From Hirudinaria manillensis (Eukaryota > Annelida > Clitellata > Hirudinida > Hirudinidae), in contig CM067528.1 of NCBI GenBank assembly GCA_034509925.1, positions 11,420,001-11,484,000 on the forward strand: a stretch of 64,000 bases of DNA, in the 5' to 3' direction. The first letter of the stretch is position 1. Each line of letters begins with the position of its first letter. Under the pieces are notes generated by a model. It did not search any database, had not been told where the DNA came from, and worked only from the letters and a program-made list of their open reading frames with translations. Positions 16,901 through 25,900 of this stretch are shown here, in pieces. The translations under genes were made by a program, and so were the position numbers.

Positions 16901-19900
16901 GATCTCCTGTTTAAATCATCAATAGCACTTGAAATTGATTGTTGCTTTTAAATTTACAATTAATTGATTGATTTAATCGATTAACTTGTTTAGTTAACTT
17001 ATATTATTTGTAAAAACTTCTTCCAACCTTGGGGAAGTCTGGATGCTCGAACGATGCAACATGCTTGAAAGTCATGAAAGACACGATGAAGTCGCTGTTC
17101 AGTGCAATGCGGCGATTTCTGATGTGGTCCTGACTGTACAACCTGGTCGTATATTGGCTGTTAACTACGACTGTGCGTGTGAAGCCAATTGAGTGATTGA
17201 TTTCCGGGGTAACGATAGTCACGGAGCCCTCGACGACGTGTTTACTCCATCCGCTTGGCTTAGACGACCCCTGGATTGTGTAGCTGAAATCCGGCGTTTC
17301 TTGGTCGTCAGTCCATTTCAGTTTGAGTGAGTGATGGAAAGAGTTGGCATCGAGTTTGTAGCCAAGGCCGAAGCCTGCAGTGGTTTCGGAGGTGATGACC
17401 GTCAGATCGAGCGACCTTTCGGTGAGCGGGCCACTTTGTTCGTTCTTGATGTCGAATTCAAATCTCACCTGATCAATTAATTGATCAATTTGATTACAGT
17501 TCACAGCAAATTTGTATTTAAGATGATAGTTAACCATTAACTTTGTAGCAAAATAGTAAACAAACGTTCTATTTAATGAAAATTATTTTCGAACGATATC
17601 GTTTTCTTTTTACTCACGTTGCTGTCTGGTCTCGTTCTATCCCAGTTCAAATTAACGGTGCCAGAATTGGCATCGCCATTGAAAGATGAATCCATCTGGC
17701 AAGGACTGCGCAGGGTGAACGTGATGAGATTGTCTCCTGTTGTTTGGCGCTTGTAATCGAAATCAATCTGAAAAAAAAAACGGATATTAAAATTTCGAAA
17801 AAAATTTCAATAATTTATTTTATTTCTATATTGTTGGATCCCTAGATCCAATAAATTGAAGAATAATTAAAATTATATTGCCGATTAATTAATTTAATAA
17901 TTAATTAAATTTAGTGGCAATATAATTTGAGAATTAATTGGTGCTATTCAGACTCTTTGGTTATGTACCTTGACAAATGGATTTGTATCGGAAAGTAGAG
18001 CGAGAATTAGAGAACAGCAGATTTCAAGACTTAATCAATTAAGCATCGTGCATCTTCCAAGCCATCTGACAACTTTCAATAAACCTGACCTTCTATAATT
18101 AGTTTGAGGACCCTGGGTTATTACATTGGTGTCAGGAGTGGGATTTAGAGTTAAAGGGTGTCCAAAAGTAACTAAGGTAGAAGCTTGTTTAGTTGAAAAG
18201 TGAAGGATGCCGAAGTACTTGGATGAATTGTACGTGCCTCGATTGAGACAAGAATTGAGAGATCGTGGCCTGGACTGCAAAGGCACGAAAGCTGAGATAC
18301 GGGAGCGACTTGGGGCATGGCTGACAGAGAATGGCCATGACCCGGAGGAATACGAATTCGAGAATCCATCCCATAAAAAAATGGAAGAATTTCTTGATTT
18401 TATGAAAAAGTCCGTAGATGAGTTGAGGAGGAGTATTAGGGGCGATTTGGAAAACACAGCGATTCCATGTCAGGATGTCTCGCTGGTTTCGGGTGAAAAC
18501 TCTACCGAGAAGAGTCCTGTTGGTTCTTTTGAATTCGAGTCCGAATATAGTAAGTGGCGGAGAAAGTTTGTAGAGAACTCTAGGAGGACTATTAGGGGCG
18601 ATTTGGAAAACACAGCGATTCCATGTCAGGATGTCTCGCTGGTTTCGGGTGAAAACTCTACCGAGAAGAGTCCTGTTGGTTCTTTTGAATTCGAGTCCGA
18701 ATATAGTAAGTGGCGGAGAAAGTTTGTAGAGAACTCTAGGAGGATTATTAGGGGCGATTTGAAAGGCACAGCGGTTCCGAGGCAGGATGCCTCGTTCTTT
18801 TCGGGTGAAAACTCTACTGAGAAGAGTTCTGATGTTCCAAGTACCGTTTCTGGCAGCATTGGGATGGAGTCATTCGAAGACACATCCAACCACAGTGCGT
18901 GCGTGTCTCCAGAAACTCTGTGCGTGATGGCAGACTTAGAGAACTCGACGTTGGAGCCCATAGAGTTACCAGATCAGGTCGAGTCGTCAGCAGGGCCCAG
19001 AGAGCTCACGGAGGTTTTAGTGGAGCAAGTGGAACTTTCGGAGGAGCCTGTGGGATTGCCGGTGGATCATGTGGAGTCGTTGGTGCAGCCCGAGGAGTTA
19101 CTGATGAGTCACGTGGAGTTGCCGGTGGAGCGCACGGATTTGATGGTGGAACAAGTAGAGTCTACAGAACAGCCAATGGATTTCCCGACAGAGTCTGCGA
19201 AGTTATTAGTACCGCCCAAGGAGTCACCGATGAAGGACATTGAGTTACCAGTGAAGCACACGAAGTTGATGGTGGAACAAGTAGAGTCTACAGAACAGCC
19301 CATGGATTTACCAGCTGATGTTTCGGCTCCATTGGAAATAACAGAAGGGAGTGCTCGGGATTTCGGGGGAGTGCCTAGCAAGGAAAATGGAGCAGGTGAT
19401 CCTGTAGAGAGTCTGAGATCTGGCGGCATGGTGGAGCAGGAGGTTGAGCATAGAAATGGCGATGTTACGCGACTGAAACTTGCGGGACACAGAAGCAAAA
19501 GGGAGGAAAGAGAAATCCCAGAAGATGGCAAAGCAAATGGATCTGGGATTTGCAGCCATGAGATTGTTGGAAGATTGGATCCTATTCCTAGAGTAAAAAT
19601 GAAAATGGGAATAGATGTCTGTTCGGGACGAACAGATTTAAGGAGGGGGCAGTGTTGGATCCCTAGATCCAATAAATTGAAGAATAATTAAAATTATATT
19701 GCCGATTAATTAATTTAATAATTAATTAAATTTAGTGGCAATATAATTTGAGAATTAATTGGTGCTATTCAGACTCTTTGGTTATGTACCTTGACAAATG
19801 GATTTGTATCGGAAAGTAGAGCGAGAATTAGAGAACAGCAGATTTCAAGACTTAATCAATTAAGCATCGTGCATCTTCCAAGCCATCTGACAACTTTCAA

Positions 19901-22900
19901 TAAACCTGACCTTCTATAATTAGTTTGAGGACCCTGGGTTATTACAATATTTTACCTTTTTCTCGTTGTTGAGTTTCACTTCAAATGTAGCCAAGTGTTC
20001 CTCTCTTATGAGGTCAACTCCGTAAGCTAAGGAGAATTGCTTAAGTTTTGGGAATGGAGATTCGAATTTCAGTAGAAGATTGTGATCTTTCACCGATGCC
20101 AAACCCATGATGAGGTCGGTGGAAATCCTGTAAGCTGTGGATCTGCTTGTGTAATCGAGTGTCAATCCACTTTCTAAGTTTGTGACTGTTCCTCTGTATT
20201 TGAGTTGCACAAGCAATTCTGAGAGGGGTGCGAAAGGAGTGGACATTTGGAAGCTTGTGTCGAAGTGGCCATGGCCTTCACTGGTGTGTTTCAATTGAAT
20301 GAAGAGTCTTTTTTCGCTATCAAAGCTATAATCTGTTCCTGATGCAGTGAACTCATTTGAGGCTACGAGACCATTTGATACGTCCAGGATAAACTTATCG
20401 CTATAGAGAATGTTGTTGGTAGCGATGGAAGCTTGCACTTGACTCTTTGTTTCTTGGACGGTAGCATCGAATTTCAATTCGCTTAGTGCCGTGTATGGTG
20501 TGATCATGTCGAATACGATTTCATTTGAGCCTGGGGCCAGATTAAGCGAAAAGTGCGATTCAAACAAGTTGGCAGTGCTGCTGGCTACGACTATGTCGTA
20601 CTTGAATGAAGAGAAATCCGATTTGTAGTAGTACGACTCTTCGATAAATCTAAGTCTGGGATGTGAGGTCTCGAGTCTGTACGTCATGAGATGTTCGTCA
20701 CTGCCATAAACGTACTTGCTGGTTGCCTTCATTCTTTCCATGTTTGTGATTGGTGTTTCTATTCTTGTTTCGCTAGCCATGTGAGTAGCATATCCTTCCA
20801 TCCATGCTTTGCTTTGTGAAACAATCAAGAACTTTTCAGGACTTGGAGAAAGACCTTCGTCATTCTCTGGACGGATACCAGTAAATGTTCCAACAGGAGC
20901 TTCGAGTGATAAGAGGTAATCCATTTCCGATGCGGTTTGTCTGTACTCTCCATTTAAAGAATATCTGTCGTATCCTGTAATTGATGTTGTCAGAACGATA
21001 TCCACTTTCTTGGTCTCTGATTCTTGGTTGACGTTGAAATCAAGATCAAAGTTTTCATATCCTTCGTGCGGAGTTTCAACCGAGGCTTTCAGAAGAATAT
21101 TGTTTGCATTTTCAACATTAAAGTTCAGAGAATTTTTGTATCTCAAATCTCCAAATTGTGAAGTGAGTTCAGTGTTAAAGTTGTTCCATGGTCCAACGTG
21201 GTTAAGGCTGAGAACGTTGTGTCCTAGTCCCCTGATCGGAGTTTTAAACGTTAATTCCGATTTGGCTTTGTATTCGCTCTCGTCATATTCAGCATGGAAA
21301 GAGAAATTTGCACTCTCGGGATCGAAAGTACAGGAAGCGTCAGTGATAAACTTTTGAAGGGAACCCTGGTGATCGAATGAGAAATCAAAGACTCTGAAAC
21401 CATTGAATGGTGTCTCAGTTCTGAATTTCATTTGGATGGTTTCGCTGTCCGGATATTTGAAAATGAGATGGTTGCTGATTGTTGAACCAGCGATTTTGAT
21501 GTCTAAGTTGGTATCCATGTCTCTGGCATCACCTTTGTGATGCAAGACAAATCCATATTCTAAGGGAACGTTTACTAAGACCTTTGCTACGACCTCTTTT
21601 CTTTCCGGCCAAGATAATTCAGATGATCCAGAGTAGCGCGCTCCGTTGATTTCCAGATGACCTTCGTTTATCCAGCCACTTCCGTAAGCAAAGCTTCTTG
21701 GTGTATGGTTGAAAACGAGGGTGACTTTTTGAACTTGAGTGAAGGGAGTTTCTAGATTTTGCGAGAGGTTGATATTTCCATCTTGAGAGAGCTCAAAGAC
21801 AGTGTCCAAAGTAATCTTGTCGTCGTTAAGTTCCAAGGAAATATCAGACGAATAACTGCTCCAAGGGCCGGTCCTTCCAAACTTGAAATGAGTTCTTTCC
21901 AACCTCTTAATCGGAGTGGTTAAGGTGGCTGTAATCAGGTGGTTGTTTTCTTCGTAAAACACCGAGGATGTCAAATGAAGGCTTCTGCCTTCGACGGTGA
22001 ATTCTGTAGCAGTTGAAAAATTCTTCCAGCTGTTAAAAGTGACCTGATTGAAGAGTCCTGCGCGTCCTCGATTAATTTCGTAGTATACTTGTGAAAGATA
22101 CTTCTGATGTTGACGCTGGTGGTGATGTTTGAGTTCTGCTTTGAGGTTCCTGAATTGTCTGTAAGGAGTGGCAAGAGTATACTGAAGAAGGAGCAGTTTT
22201 TTAGGGTCTCTGACGTCATAAGTGAAACTTTGGCTGATCTTTCCTGGAACGCTATTGTGTTCGATATCGGCTGAGATTTTAAGATGCTTCTCGGTACCAT
22301 TTACAACAGATGCGAGTTTAAAGGTTCTCAACGCTTCCCAAGGAGTGTTTATGTTCAGGTCAAATCTCTTTTCTCTACCTATGTTGGTCTCTCCAGAAAT
22401 CGAAAACTTTCCGTGATTGTAGTCGATTCCAGCTCTTGCTCTCAACAGGTTGTCATTGATTTCGTTCTTCAATGAGAAGGACGCACGTTCCAAGTGTCTG
22501 CAAGTTGAGGTAACTTCAAGGCTGGCATCTAGAGCGCCGGTTCCGTCATTCTTCAAAACTCCTCCAAGAGTTACTTGTCCAGTGGCTCCAAGATTGACTT
22601 CGTTAGCAGCATGATAGGTCGTTCCATCGTAACGATTGTTCATGTCAAGCTCCAGTTTTTCGTATCCTCTGAATGGCGTACCAATAGACAGCTTAAACAC
22701 CAGAGCTTCCCTGGGTAAAAACTGTAGGTTGTGTTGAATGGTGATACGCTGGTGTTCCAAATTACCTGTCAACCTTCCTTCGCCGATGAAAGCATCAATA
22801 GAGTGCTTGTAATTGAGATTGATGCCGAAGTTGGAAAATCCAGGACGAGGTGTCTTGATCGAGAGATCTCCAGAAACTTGTCTGCTGTTTCCGCGGAGAT

Positions 22901-25900
22901 GAGTGGTTCCGTCCAAAGCCAACTGGTATCTTTCTCGGGAAATGTGAATTTCATGGTGGGAATTGACTCCTGTAGAGTTATGTCTGTGATTCCAGGTGAT
23001 GTATTGGTTTTCCCAACCTTGGATGAAAGTCTGAAGTGCAATTCTGCCTTCGAATGAAACTGAATCGTCTGATATTTCATTGTTTGAAGTTAGAGTGAGA
23101 GCGAGTTTATGGTTTCTAGGCAAAGCAAGTTCTGCACTACTTTGGCAGTTTAGACCGGTGACCAAGTTTTTTACATTGAAAGTTAGTGACTCGAAGCCTC
23201 TGAAACCACTGCTTATGACCATTTTACCATCGAAGTTGGGAAGAGAATTGGCGTCAGCTTCTAGAGTAACAGCAACGTAATCGTTTTCCCAGGCTACTTC
23301 AGCGATTTGGTTGAGGCGTCTGTCTTGGATCTCTGTCTGACTCTTGAATTTCAGTGTCTTGTATCCTTCAAATGGTGTGCTTGCATTTATTTTCAAATTC
23401 ATGTTCTCATAAAGAAGATCGGCAACTATCCTCTTGTTCGGACTCCAAGAAACTGAAAAGGTGGAGCGGGTCTGTTGACTGTCATAAATAGCGTGGAAAG
23501 AACTTGCAATCTCTTGGATTCCTGGTATTGAACTCCTGATTGCAACTTGTCCTTGGAGATCGCCAGTTGTTGTCAACCAGCCTCTGGTTTCATATTTACC
23601 GAGTGTGGATATTTCGAAAAAGTTGTTTGGCCATTCGACTTTTGCCATGAAGCTCGGTGTCTCAGATAAAGCAGTGACTGATGTGGTCAACTTGTAAGTA
23701 ATGTGTTCCTTCAAAAGAACGGTTACTTGACCTGTAAATTCCATGGAACGCCTTGTCACTGATACATCGAGACTATGTCTGGATGAAGGATAAAACACTT
23801 CGACTGCAAGTTCAGAATTGTAACGTTCATAGCTGTTTCCCCTGAAATTGTATTTTCCTTCCATTCCGTAGGTGTCTCCATCGTACATCGCAACTCCTTT
23901 GAACTGAACATTGTGTGGATTTGGATTCAGATAGCCCGAAACCTCGATTGGTTTGAACCCTTCGATTTGAGATTTAATATCCCATTCGTGCCTCGAAGCG
24001 TCTACAAGTTTGTAGATTCCTTCAACCCTTCCAGACTTTGTGAATCGTGGGGTAACAAATTGACCATCTACCATGAAACTGTACGTGGGTCCGACCCCCT
24101 CTCTGACCGTTTCAGCCACTTTGAACGAGTAACCCTTAGGTAGGCCAATCTCCACGTCCCCAACGATGTTCAGAGGTCCTCTGGGATCGTTTTTAAGTCC
24201 GATGTTGACAAAGAATTCCTTCCTGCCGTGAACTATGACTGATGTGTTTGAAAGCAGTTGGGCATCGGTGTGAACGTGATCATACTCTGCTATCCAGTCC
24301 CAGAGCTGATAAAATGATTTTTAAAGAAATTTAATAATCGTTTTGAAATAATAAAGTATTTTTTTGCAACATCAATTCTTTCATCCTCAAATTGATAGCC
24401 TATTGTATTAAATTCGTATTAATTAATTGTTAATTAATTAGTTAATCGTTAACTGACCTTAGAAGGTACTTCCAATTGCAGTTTTCCATTTATTCTTTGC
24501 CTTGGACCGTGAAGATCCAAGATTCCGGATTGAGCAATCAAGATCTTCCTAACATCATTCTGTTTCAGCTCCACTTTAGAACGTAGAGTTGTTGTACTGT
24601 ATTCCAGATCCACGAAGGATTTGACATTGAGATGGGGAAGTTCGCTGAATTCCAACGACCTGAAAGGTTTATAGAAATATTTTCTTTTGCATTAAACCAA
24701 CAGAGAGAAATTTCGGTTATTTCTGTATCGATTATTTCCATTAAGATTGCAAATTTTGCAGATTTTTCTCTTTCAAACACTTAGCACAACTTAGTGACGA
24801 ACTAAACCGATATTTGGATTATACATAGAAATATCCAATTTATCAAATAAAACCAATTTTATACAACCTAATAAAGAGTGATGTTAGAGATGCTACTTAC
24901 CCTTCCGTTTGGAATGATTTGAGGTTGCTGGTACTTTCGTCGTTGATCTTTACAAGGAAAGATGCCGTTTGCGGCTGGTTTTGTCCCAACCTGTAGCTGA
25001 GAGTCGACTTAGTGAGCCAGCTGTAATAGCCGGGTTGTTTTCGCTCAGCCGATGATCTGAGGTTTACTTGGAGAAGGTGGCTGGAAAAGCCAGCAATAAG
25101 TTCGTACTTGTTGACTCTCTGGTTGTGATTGTAGTTAACTGAAAATAAATTGTCGCAATTGAGTCATGTAAAGCAAAAGAGTTTCAATCCCAGACTGACA
25201 TCAATACTTACTATTGAGTACGACTGGCTGAAGGAAAAGATTGGCCAAATTTGCGTTGAATTCGACTCTTCTTTCGTTCTTCTTGAGGACTCCCTGCAAA
25301 ACGACGGTGGGTGATTGAGGAACCACGACCTCCAGTTTGTAGTTGAACTGTTGTTTCTGATTGTCGGAGTTGTTGATAATTTCGCCTTTCAATTCGTAGC
25401 GTTGGACGTTGTCAACTGTGATAACAACATCAGCCTTCCACGTCTGAGGAGAGAGGAGAGCTTGGGACTGGAGAGAGAGTGACTTCCAGGGAGAGTAAAA
25501 GTGGATATCGAGCTTTCCATTGTGACGGTGAAGTTCGAAGTCCAATGAGATCTTTCTGTCGATTCTCGATTGTGGGGTGTCAACCTTGAAGCGGAACACG
25601 TCCGTTGGATCGGTCTGAAGTAAATATAAGAAAATTAATAATCTACTCAAATATATTTCTTACTTTTTCAGAATATTATACTAACATGAAAATTGACAAA
25701 ATATTTATGTTTGCTGCCAAAATATTTACTTATAAGTAATTAAATGCTGTTCTCATGTGACAATCAATTGATGTTCAACATTTGCATTTGTAAAATGATA
25801 AACCAGACTATCCTACCGTTGAAGAAATAACAAAAAATAAATAAAACGGACTTTATCACGCAATTGTGACAGTAAAGATGTTTAAAAAGACCACCTTGCA

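Follow-up and report, generated by a model that had tools for sequence, protein, structure and literature searches.

An enzyme-less Ty3-type retrotransposon family of the leech Hirudinaria manillensis with a single open reading frame headed by a Gag-like SAP domain

In a 64,000-nucleotide stretch of the Hirudinaria manillensis genome (GenBank assembly GCA_034509925.1, contig CM067528.1, positions 11,420,001 to 11,484,000; hereafter the window) we find a complete long terminal repeat (LTR) retrotransposon whose only long sense open reading frame (ORF) opens with a SAP domain. The element is probably a non-autonomous Ty3/gypsy-type derivative of a lineage that resides in the same genome and has a SAP-headed Gag; it would be mobilised in trans by that lineage and would encode a Gag-fragment protein of use to itself. 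Our analysis covers this one genome, in which a small part of the copies was read.

The element had been noticed from the letters of the window alone, and that original prediction of a structurally complete LTR element with one 494-residue, SAP-headed protein and borrowed enzymes proved correct: its coordinates are exact, and paired LTRs (starting TGTTGG and ending ATTACA), primer site, polypurine tract and the short ATAT target duplication are all present (Table 1). Pfam places the SAP domain at residues 7-35 (PF02037, E = 3e-8, above the curated cut-off) and reports nothing else above cut-off in the ORF, neither reverse transcriptase (RT) nor integrase. Two features had gone unmentioned. The ORF passes the polypurine tract and ends within the 3' LTR, which encodes its last 12 residues, and it contains a 156-bp tandem repeat in frame; other copies have frames of 443, 495 and 547 codons, steps of 52 that match the 52-residue repeat unit. 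Large retrotransposon derivatives (LARDs) have a non-coding interior longer than about 4 kb, and the window element lacks the long non-coding interior of that class. Nor does it fall among the terminal-repeat retrotransposons in miniature (TRIMs), defined in the accessible text of PMC10886601 as shorter than 1,000 bp and without a protein for mobilisation, being 2,115 bp long with a conserved ORF of 494 codons.

By sequence comparison the SAP domain is the inherited N-terminus of Gag, because full-length relatives that have the same ends as the window element begin their Gag with SAP. Residues 2-67 match the Gag of these relatives at 62% identity over 66 residues (profile match, E = 2.6e-18), and homology is detected up to residue 67 and not beyond. 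A SAP profile search of the genome gave 150 scored matches of 513 candidates, 47 of the 150 in frames of at least 1,500 codons, where runs of N also count as open frame (as at locus L044). Pieces of long-frame copies open with SAP and short repeats and continue into a Gag body; by eye, a CCHC knuckle and the beginning of a protease follow. With Pfam, zinc knuckle/protease and RT/integrase domains were each tested on one copy: a piece of L045 gave SAP, CCHC and protease, while downstream pieces of a copy on contig C2 (C2:9259-9265 kb) gave RVT_1 and H2C2 plus rve. Among PDB structures, Ty3 is the nearest to the RT piece of the C2 copy (E = 1e-44). The frame of this copy, counted from the SAP start to the stop that immediately precedes the polypurine tract, measures 1,651 codons by coordinates and is reported without stops. 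Its LTRs are 100% identical, with ATAT on either side, though they are 224 bp long against 294 bp in the window element. Primer site, ATAT duplication and the junction of hairpin, polypurine tract and TGTTGGATCCC (the LTR start) are common to both. At the DNA level the window element and the relatives are about 69% identical across LTR end, primer site, leader and SAP, and the 3' junctions of the C2 copy and the window element agree at 85% over 82 bp. The autonomous relative with common LTR ends and SAP-headed Gag that had been anticipated is therefore present, the C2 copy being one example. These Gag-Pol copies (C2, comprising L030, L051, L052 and L047; L034, L035, L045) start their Gag with the same SAP as the window element but, unlike it, keep zinc knuckle, protease, RT and integrase.

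Two further loci touch on this lineage. L044 (C1:13694900-13697009) is 94% identical to the window element over 667 bp of LTR and SAP and is a candidate full-length partner masked by N; the 1,779-codon frame at C1:13697113 was discarded as evidence, as it reads N after codon 100. At L020:1-6914 (C1), two SAP-headed Gag-Pol copies stand head to tail and adjoin a SAP-only copy; one ends within RT and the other runs past the locus edge.

A SAP newly captured from a host gene is excluded by its position as Gag's own start in the relatives. The related idea that the SAP protein was acquired independently of Gag for DNA targeting is, in our view, highly improbable. SAP domains do bind AT-rich DNA, the title of PDB entry 1h1j names S/MAR (scaffold/matrix attachment region) DNA, and insertions of this family lie at AT-rich sites. 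Against this stand the 62% match to the relatives' Gag and the distribution of the insertion preference: because the C2 Gag-Pol copy also has an ATAT duplication, and the ORF-less PbTRIM of the harvester ant, in the accessible text of its description, is mostly flanked by ATAT (PMC3532108), such a preference does not require the SAP-only protein.

The window element is one of many. A DNA search of the genome (40 of 1,238 candidates scored) returned 145 matching stretches, among them 17 further copies matching nearly the whole element at 94-98% identity, or 18 with the window's own, and the LTR-primer-site junction occurs 502 times genome-wide within two mismatches (reversed pattern, 0). When the first 66 residues were searched, 135 of the best 150 matches, out of 567 candidates, fell within open frames 340-999 codons long. 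In this sample lengths of 385 (52 copies), 495 (13), 443 (11) and 352 codons (9) were the most frequent; since these are the best matches, the sample is biased to young copies. A doubt attached to the original prediction was that the ORF might be the 5' end of an ordinary gag-pol, left by a one-off deletion, or be broken in all other copies. Its start does correspond to the 5' end of gag-pol in the full-length relatives, but a one-off deletion is ruled out by the further near-full copies, the 502 junctions and the many open SAP frames, and the ORF is not broken in every other copy.

Many copies are young. From 30 LTR pairings, five nested, cross-element or truncated ones were removed, as was L013, whose LTRs differ in length; in the remaining 24, of equal length, 18 pairs are identical (one of them, L025, shares an LTR with a neighbouring copy), four have one difference and two have two. 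Matching 4-bp target duplications flank 23 of 26 copies, L028, one of the three misses, being cut by the end of its locus; 13 are ATAT, and all 23 have TA at positions 2-3.

Within this family the ORF appears to be kept open by selection, and clear amino-acid constraint is seen, at the level of sequence variation, in the SAP part only. Pooled over 23 intact ORFs, the ratio of nonsynonymous to synonymous divergence (pN/pS) is 0.28 for residues 1-52, 0.65 for residues 53-205 and 0.60 for residues 206-470, a comparison the original prediction had called for. Synonymous divergence (pS) is 0.064 in the SAP part and 0.069 in the tail, beside an LTR divergence of 0.046; constraint on the SAP protein is indicated because nonsynonymous divergence is lowered there and synonymous divergence is not. 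Singleton variants in the SAP part are 2 nonsynonymous (N) and 9 synonymous (S), against 7.0 and 4.0 expected (p = 0.003, variants against opportunity), and over residues 1-470 omega is 0.61 and 0.72 (p = 0.005 and 0.07). No stop occurs among 241 single-base variants in 25 copies, with 7.8 expected (p = 0.0004), nor among the 204 variants of codons 67-470 alone (6.2 expected, p = 0.002); seven damaged copies, with a broken frame or without the normal start, have 5 stops among 225 variants (7.4 expected, p = 0.26). The 25 copies have two LTRs and a recognisable start, include two frame-shifted ones and lean young; L028 (insertion) and L023 (3' end not found) were left out, and L040 served as background only. 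Of 16 distinct indels in the ORF, 12 have lengths divisible by three, against 2 of 18 in LTR and leader (Fisher p = 0.0003); the aligner probably divided a single 51-base event into one pair of ORF gaps (22 and 29). Relatedness among the copies is a caveat, since the Poisson and binomial tests assume independent variants. The absence of stops in the 25 copies and the mostly in-frame indels argue that the frame is kept open throughout its length. The predicted maintenance of a SAP protein thus appears to hold as far as the open frame is concerned, whereas the SAP domain is no special addition but the N-terminus of Gag.

Several observations weigh against the reading of a mobilised derivative with a useful protein. 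Shared variants in the SAP part, taken alone, are non-significant (7 N, 5 S, p = 0.18), as is the stop deficit of codons 1-66 (0 of 37, 1.65 expected, p = 0.19). Residues 53-100 appear to evolve neutrally or faster (singletons 15 N, 1 S), omega is 0.67 and 0.83 in residues 206-470 (p = 0.07 and 0.32), and amino acids outside SAP are nearly free of constraint. Among relatives with a nearly identical LTR none was readable at full length, the best candidate, L044, entering N after codon 100. Twenty loci were also taken by primer site from outside the DNA-search list (L009-L027, following one another along C1 apart from two close neighbours that were passed over, and L028 on C3). Only eight of them (L009, L010, L012, L014, L018, L019, L021, L022) retain both LTRs and a frame that stays open from its normal start as far as the 3' LTR; many copies are therefore dead. 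The remaining 12 show truncation, a frame shift, an interruption, an early stop or loss of the start, and two of these, L016 and L017, are truncated and lack the ORF.

The main rival, which we rate as somewhat unlikely, is that an open frame on the RNA is what counts, and the encoded protein does not: ribosomes reaching the 3' LTR would protect the transcript from nonsense-mediated decay, and the SAP stretch would be a packaging signal, much as retroviral packaging signals can reach into gag. Such a role would suit a frame that is open in its entirety, freely varying tail included, that ends inside the 3' LTR, and whose tail is near neutral at the protein level. It does not account for the SAP part, where it is nonsynonymous divergence that is lowered and not synonymous divergence. 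Alternatively, the elements might be passive deletion derivatives whose frames are intact through youth alone, with an unselected protein. The mostly identical LTR pairs, the damage at 12 of the 20 primer-site loci and the near-neutral tail would all agree with this, but subfamilies that differ by many substitutions and indels still show 0 stops (7.8 expected) and mostly in-frame ORF indels, and a relative at 70-78% DNA identity keeps the SAP-plus-tail layout; we consider passive descent unlikely.

After residue 67 the remainder of the protein is an acidic, probably disordered tail. The single-sequence AlphaFold model is mostly below a pLDDT of 50 past residue 82, and SAP-type chains on residues 1-59 fill the top of a fold comparison, so that the fold of later residues was barely tested by it. 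A hidden capsid had been proposed for residues 60-250; none was matched by Pfam, PDB sequence search, hhalign against the relatives' Gag or the single-sequence AlphaFold model, a weak test given shallow alignments. Beyond residue 67, hhalign against the relatives' Gag reached E = 0.58 with these shallow alignments, and blastp of the tails gave only matches at E = 0.09-0.19. As to the tail's origin, no DNA similarity was found to the pieces of the relatives' RT, integrase or Gag that were compared.

A protein that is an N-terminal Gag fragment with no detected capsid also brings to mind a trans-dominant factor that limits or diverts the full-length relatives, and Ty1 is restricted by a truncated Gag on comparable logic. 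We think this improbable: such a factor would also restrict the element's own spread, selection for it in cis is hard to see, and the sole full-length copy with both LTRs read, the C2 copy, has identical LTRs, which indicates that the full-length lineage has not been shut down.

We therefore return to a trans-mobilised derivative with a useful Gag-fragment protein. The element would have kept its parent's 5' end (LTR end, primer site, leader, SAP and the start of the next Gag helix) and 3' end (short hairpin, polypurine tract and LTR start), and would have lost capsid, nucleocapsid, protease, RT and integrase, with a repeat-rich acidic tail in their place. Because cis signals and target duplication are common to both, we infer that the parental Gag-Pol machinery recognises the common ends, makes a copy of the element and integrates it. 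The protein would be made and be useful to the element: its SAP/helix module may join parental Gag assemblies and favour the element's own RNA or cDNA, or it may instead hold the complex on AT-rich chromatin. We prefer the joining of Gag assemblies, or a mix of the two, over chromatin docking alone, since the insertion preference is common to the C2 parent copy and the ORF-less PbTRIM and needs no extra targeting factor.

A bolder extension, possible but held tentatively, is that SAP serves as a one-gene adaptor for whichever SAP-headed Ty3 family is active, the module being renewed by recombination to match the partner while the tail stays open and free to vary. An old SAP-only relative at L014:3978-5622 has 70-78% DNA identity, the same SAP-plus-tail layout and a tail homologous to that of the window type. 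Its SAP is 63% identical to the L045 Gag-Pol family versus 50% to L030, whereas the window-type SAP is 71% identical to L030 versus 60% to L045. These two cases, one of them decayed, are suggestive of exchange of the SAP module between families.

Table 1. Features of the SAP-headed element, in window positions
Feature	Position	Strand	Remarks
Target-site duplication ATAT, 5' copy	17828..17831	.	read from sequence
Whole element	17832..19946	+	2,115 bp
5' LTR, 294 bp	17832..18125	+	100% identity with 3' LTR
Near-palindrome in LTR, 59 nt	17870..17928 and 19691-19749	+	inverted repeat, 29-nt arms, 83% complementary
Primer binding site, tRNA-Leu	18127..18146	+	TGGTGTCAGGAGTGGGATTT, 19/20 bases complementary
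Sole long sense ORF, 494 aa	18207..19691	+	stop inside 3' LTR
Module of apparent Gag origin, residues 2-67	18210..18407	+	SAP domain and start of predicted helix 54-82
156-bp (52-aa) repeat, three in-frame copies	18404..18871	+	third copy 68% like first
Acidic tail, residues 206-470, pI (isoelectric point) 4.4	18822..19616	+	low-confidence model, no clear fold
Hairpin CTGTTCGGGACGAACAG	19619..19635	+	immediately before polypurine tract; identical in full-length relative
Polypurine tract AAGGAGGGGG	19640..19649	+	sequence; also in full-length relative
3' LTR, 294 bp	19653..19946	+	100% identity with 5' LTR
Target-site duplication ATAT, 3' copy	19947..19950	.	read from sequence

The primer site has one mismatch, a G-U wobble, to the complement of the 3' end of this genome's intron-bearing tRNA-Leu genes, whose anticodon we take, by our own reading and not from program output, to be CAA, with an added CCA. 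The tRNA 3'-end pattern has 321 reverse-strand matches and one forward-strand match in the genome; among the 100 places listed of these 322 none matches the primer site exactly, all differing by one base, and all 100 lie at C1:4489177-4514296. The genes form a long tandem array with a 246-bp period, on C1 from 4489177 (L053). Rfam recognised two complete tRNAs in 651 bases of the array, and it found the intron-bearing tRNA that ARAGORN missed. The arrayed tRNA-Leu 3' end fits the primer site of this retrotransposon lineage. The near-palindrome in the LTR is AT-rich. Beside the element, a minus-strand ORF of 1,384 codons (window 19920-24074) abuts the insertion, and the element probably lies in an intron of that ORF's gene, in opposite orientation; Pfam gave no match for the two host ORFs neighbouring the element.

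BARE-2 and LARD-type parasites are non-autonomous LTR elements thought to ride on relatives; they differ from the window element in host and layout, and we know of none that keeps a SAP module alone. Closer in design is TR-GAG of plants which, going by the accessible part of PMC8704663 (where BARE1/BARE2 are also named), has two LTRs, one Gag-type ORF and a full-length relative able to supply enzymes. The TR-GAG ORF, however, specifies a complete Gag (562 aa in AT5TE33540); in the window element the N-terminal SAP part is all that can be recognised of Gag, and the tail that follows it is unrelated. PbTRIM of the harvester ant, as far as the available text of PMC3532108 describes it, resembles our element by description, not by sequence, in its tRNA-Leu primer site, 4-bp duplications with ATAT commonest and many young elements; it is small and non-coding, in contrast to the 494-aa ORF here, and no autonomous partner was found for it. 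Helenus TRIMs of Hymenoptera use several primer tRNAs including tRNA-Leu, and the primer sites of animal Helenus show similarity with Gypsy elements only (both from the accessible text of PMC10886601). The literature matches listed (titles and abstract openings, covering few subscription papers) included no description of a SAP domain in LTR-retrotransposon Gag.

SAP-headed, tRNA-Leu-primed, ATAT-inserting Ty3 elements are thus suggested as a candidate partner lineage for elements like the ant PbTRIM. In addition, the part of the bumblebee genome paper available to us lists SAP motifs among the most copy-variable domains (PMC7826183), and some of the SAP-domain genes counted in insect genomes may belong to transposons, the link to transposons being our own. 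It is an open question how enzyme-less LTR elements come to share in the particles of another element, and the known cases compared here are non-coding or carry a whole Gag. Here one small Gag domain is apparently kept by selection, so that the question comes down to a module of about 66 residues, small enough to be tested by itself.

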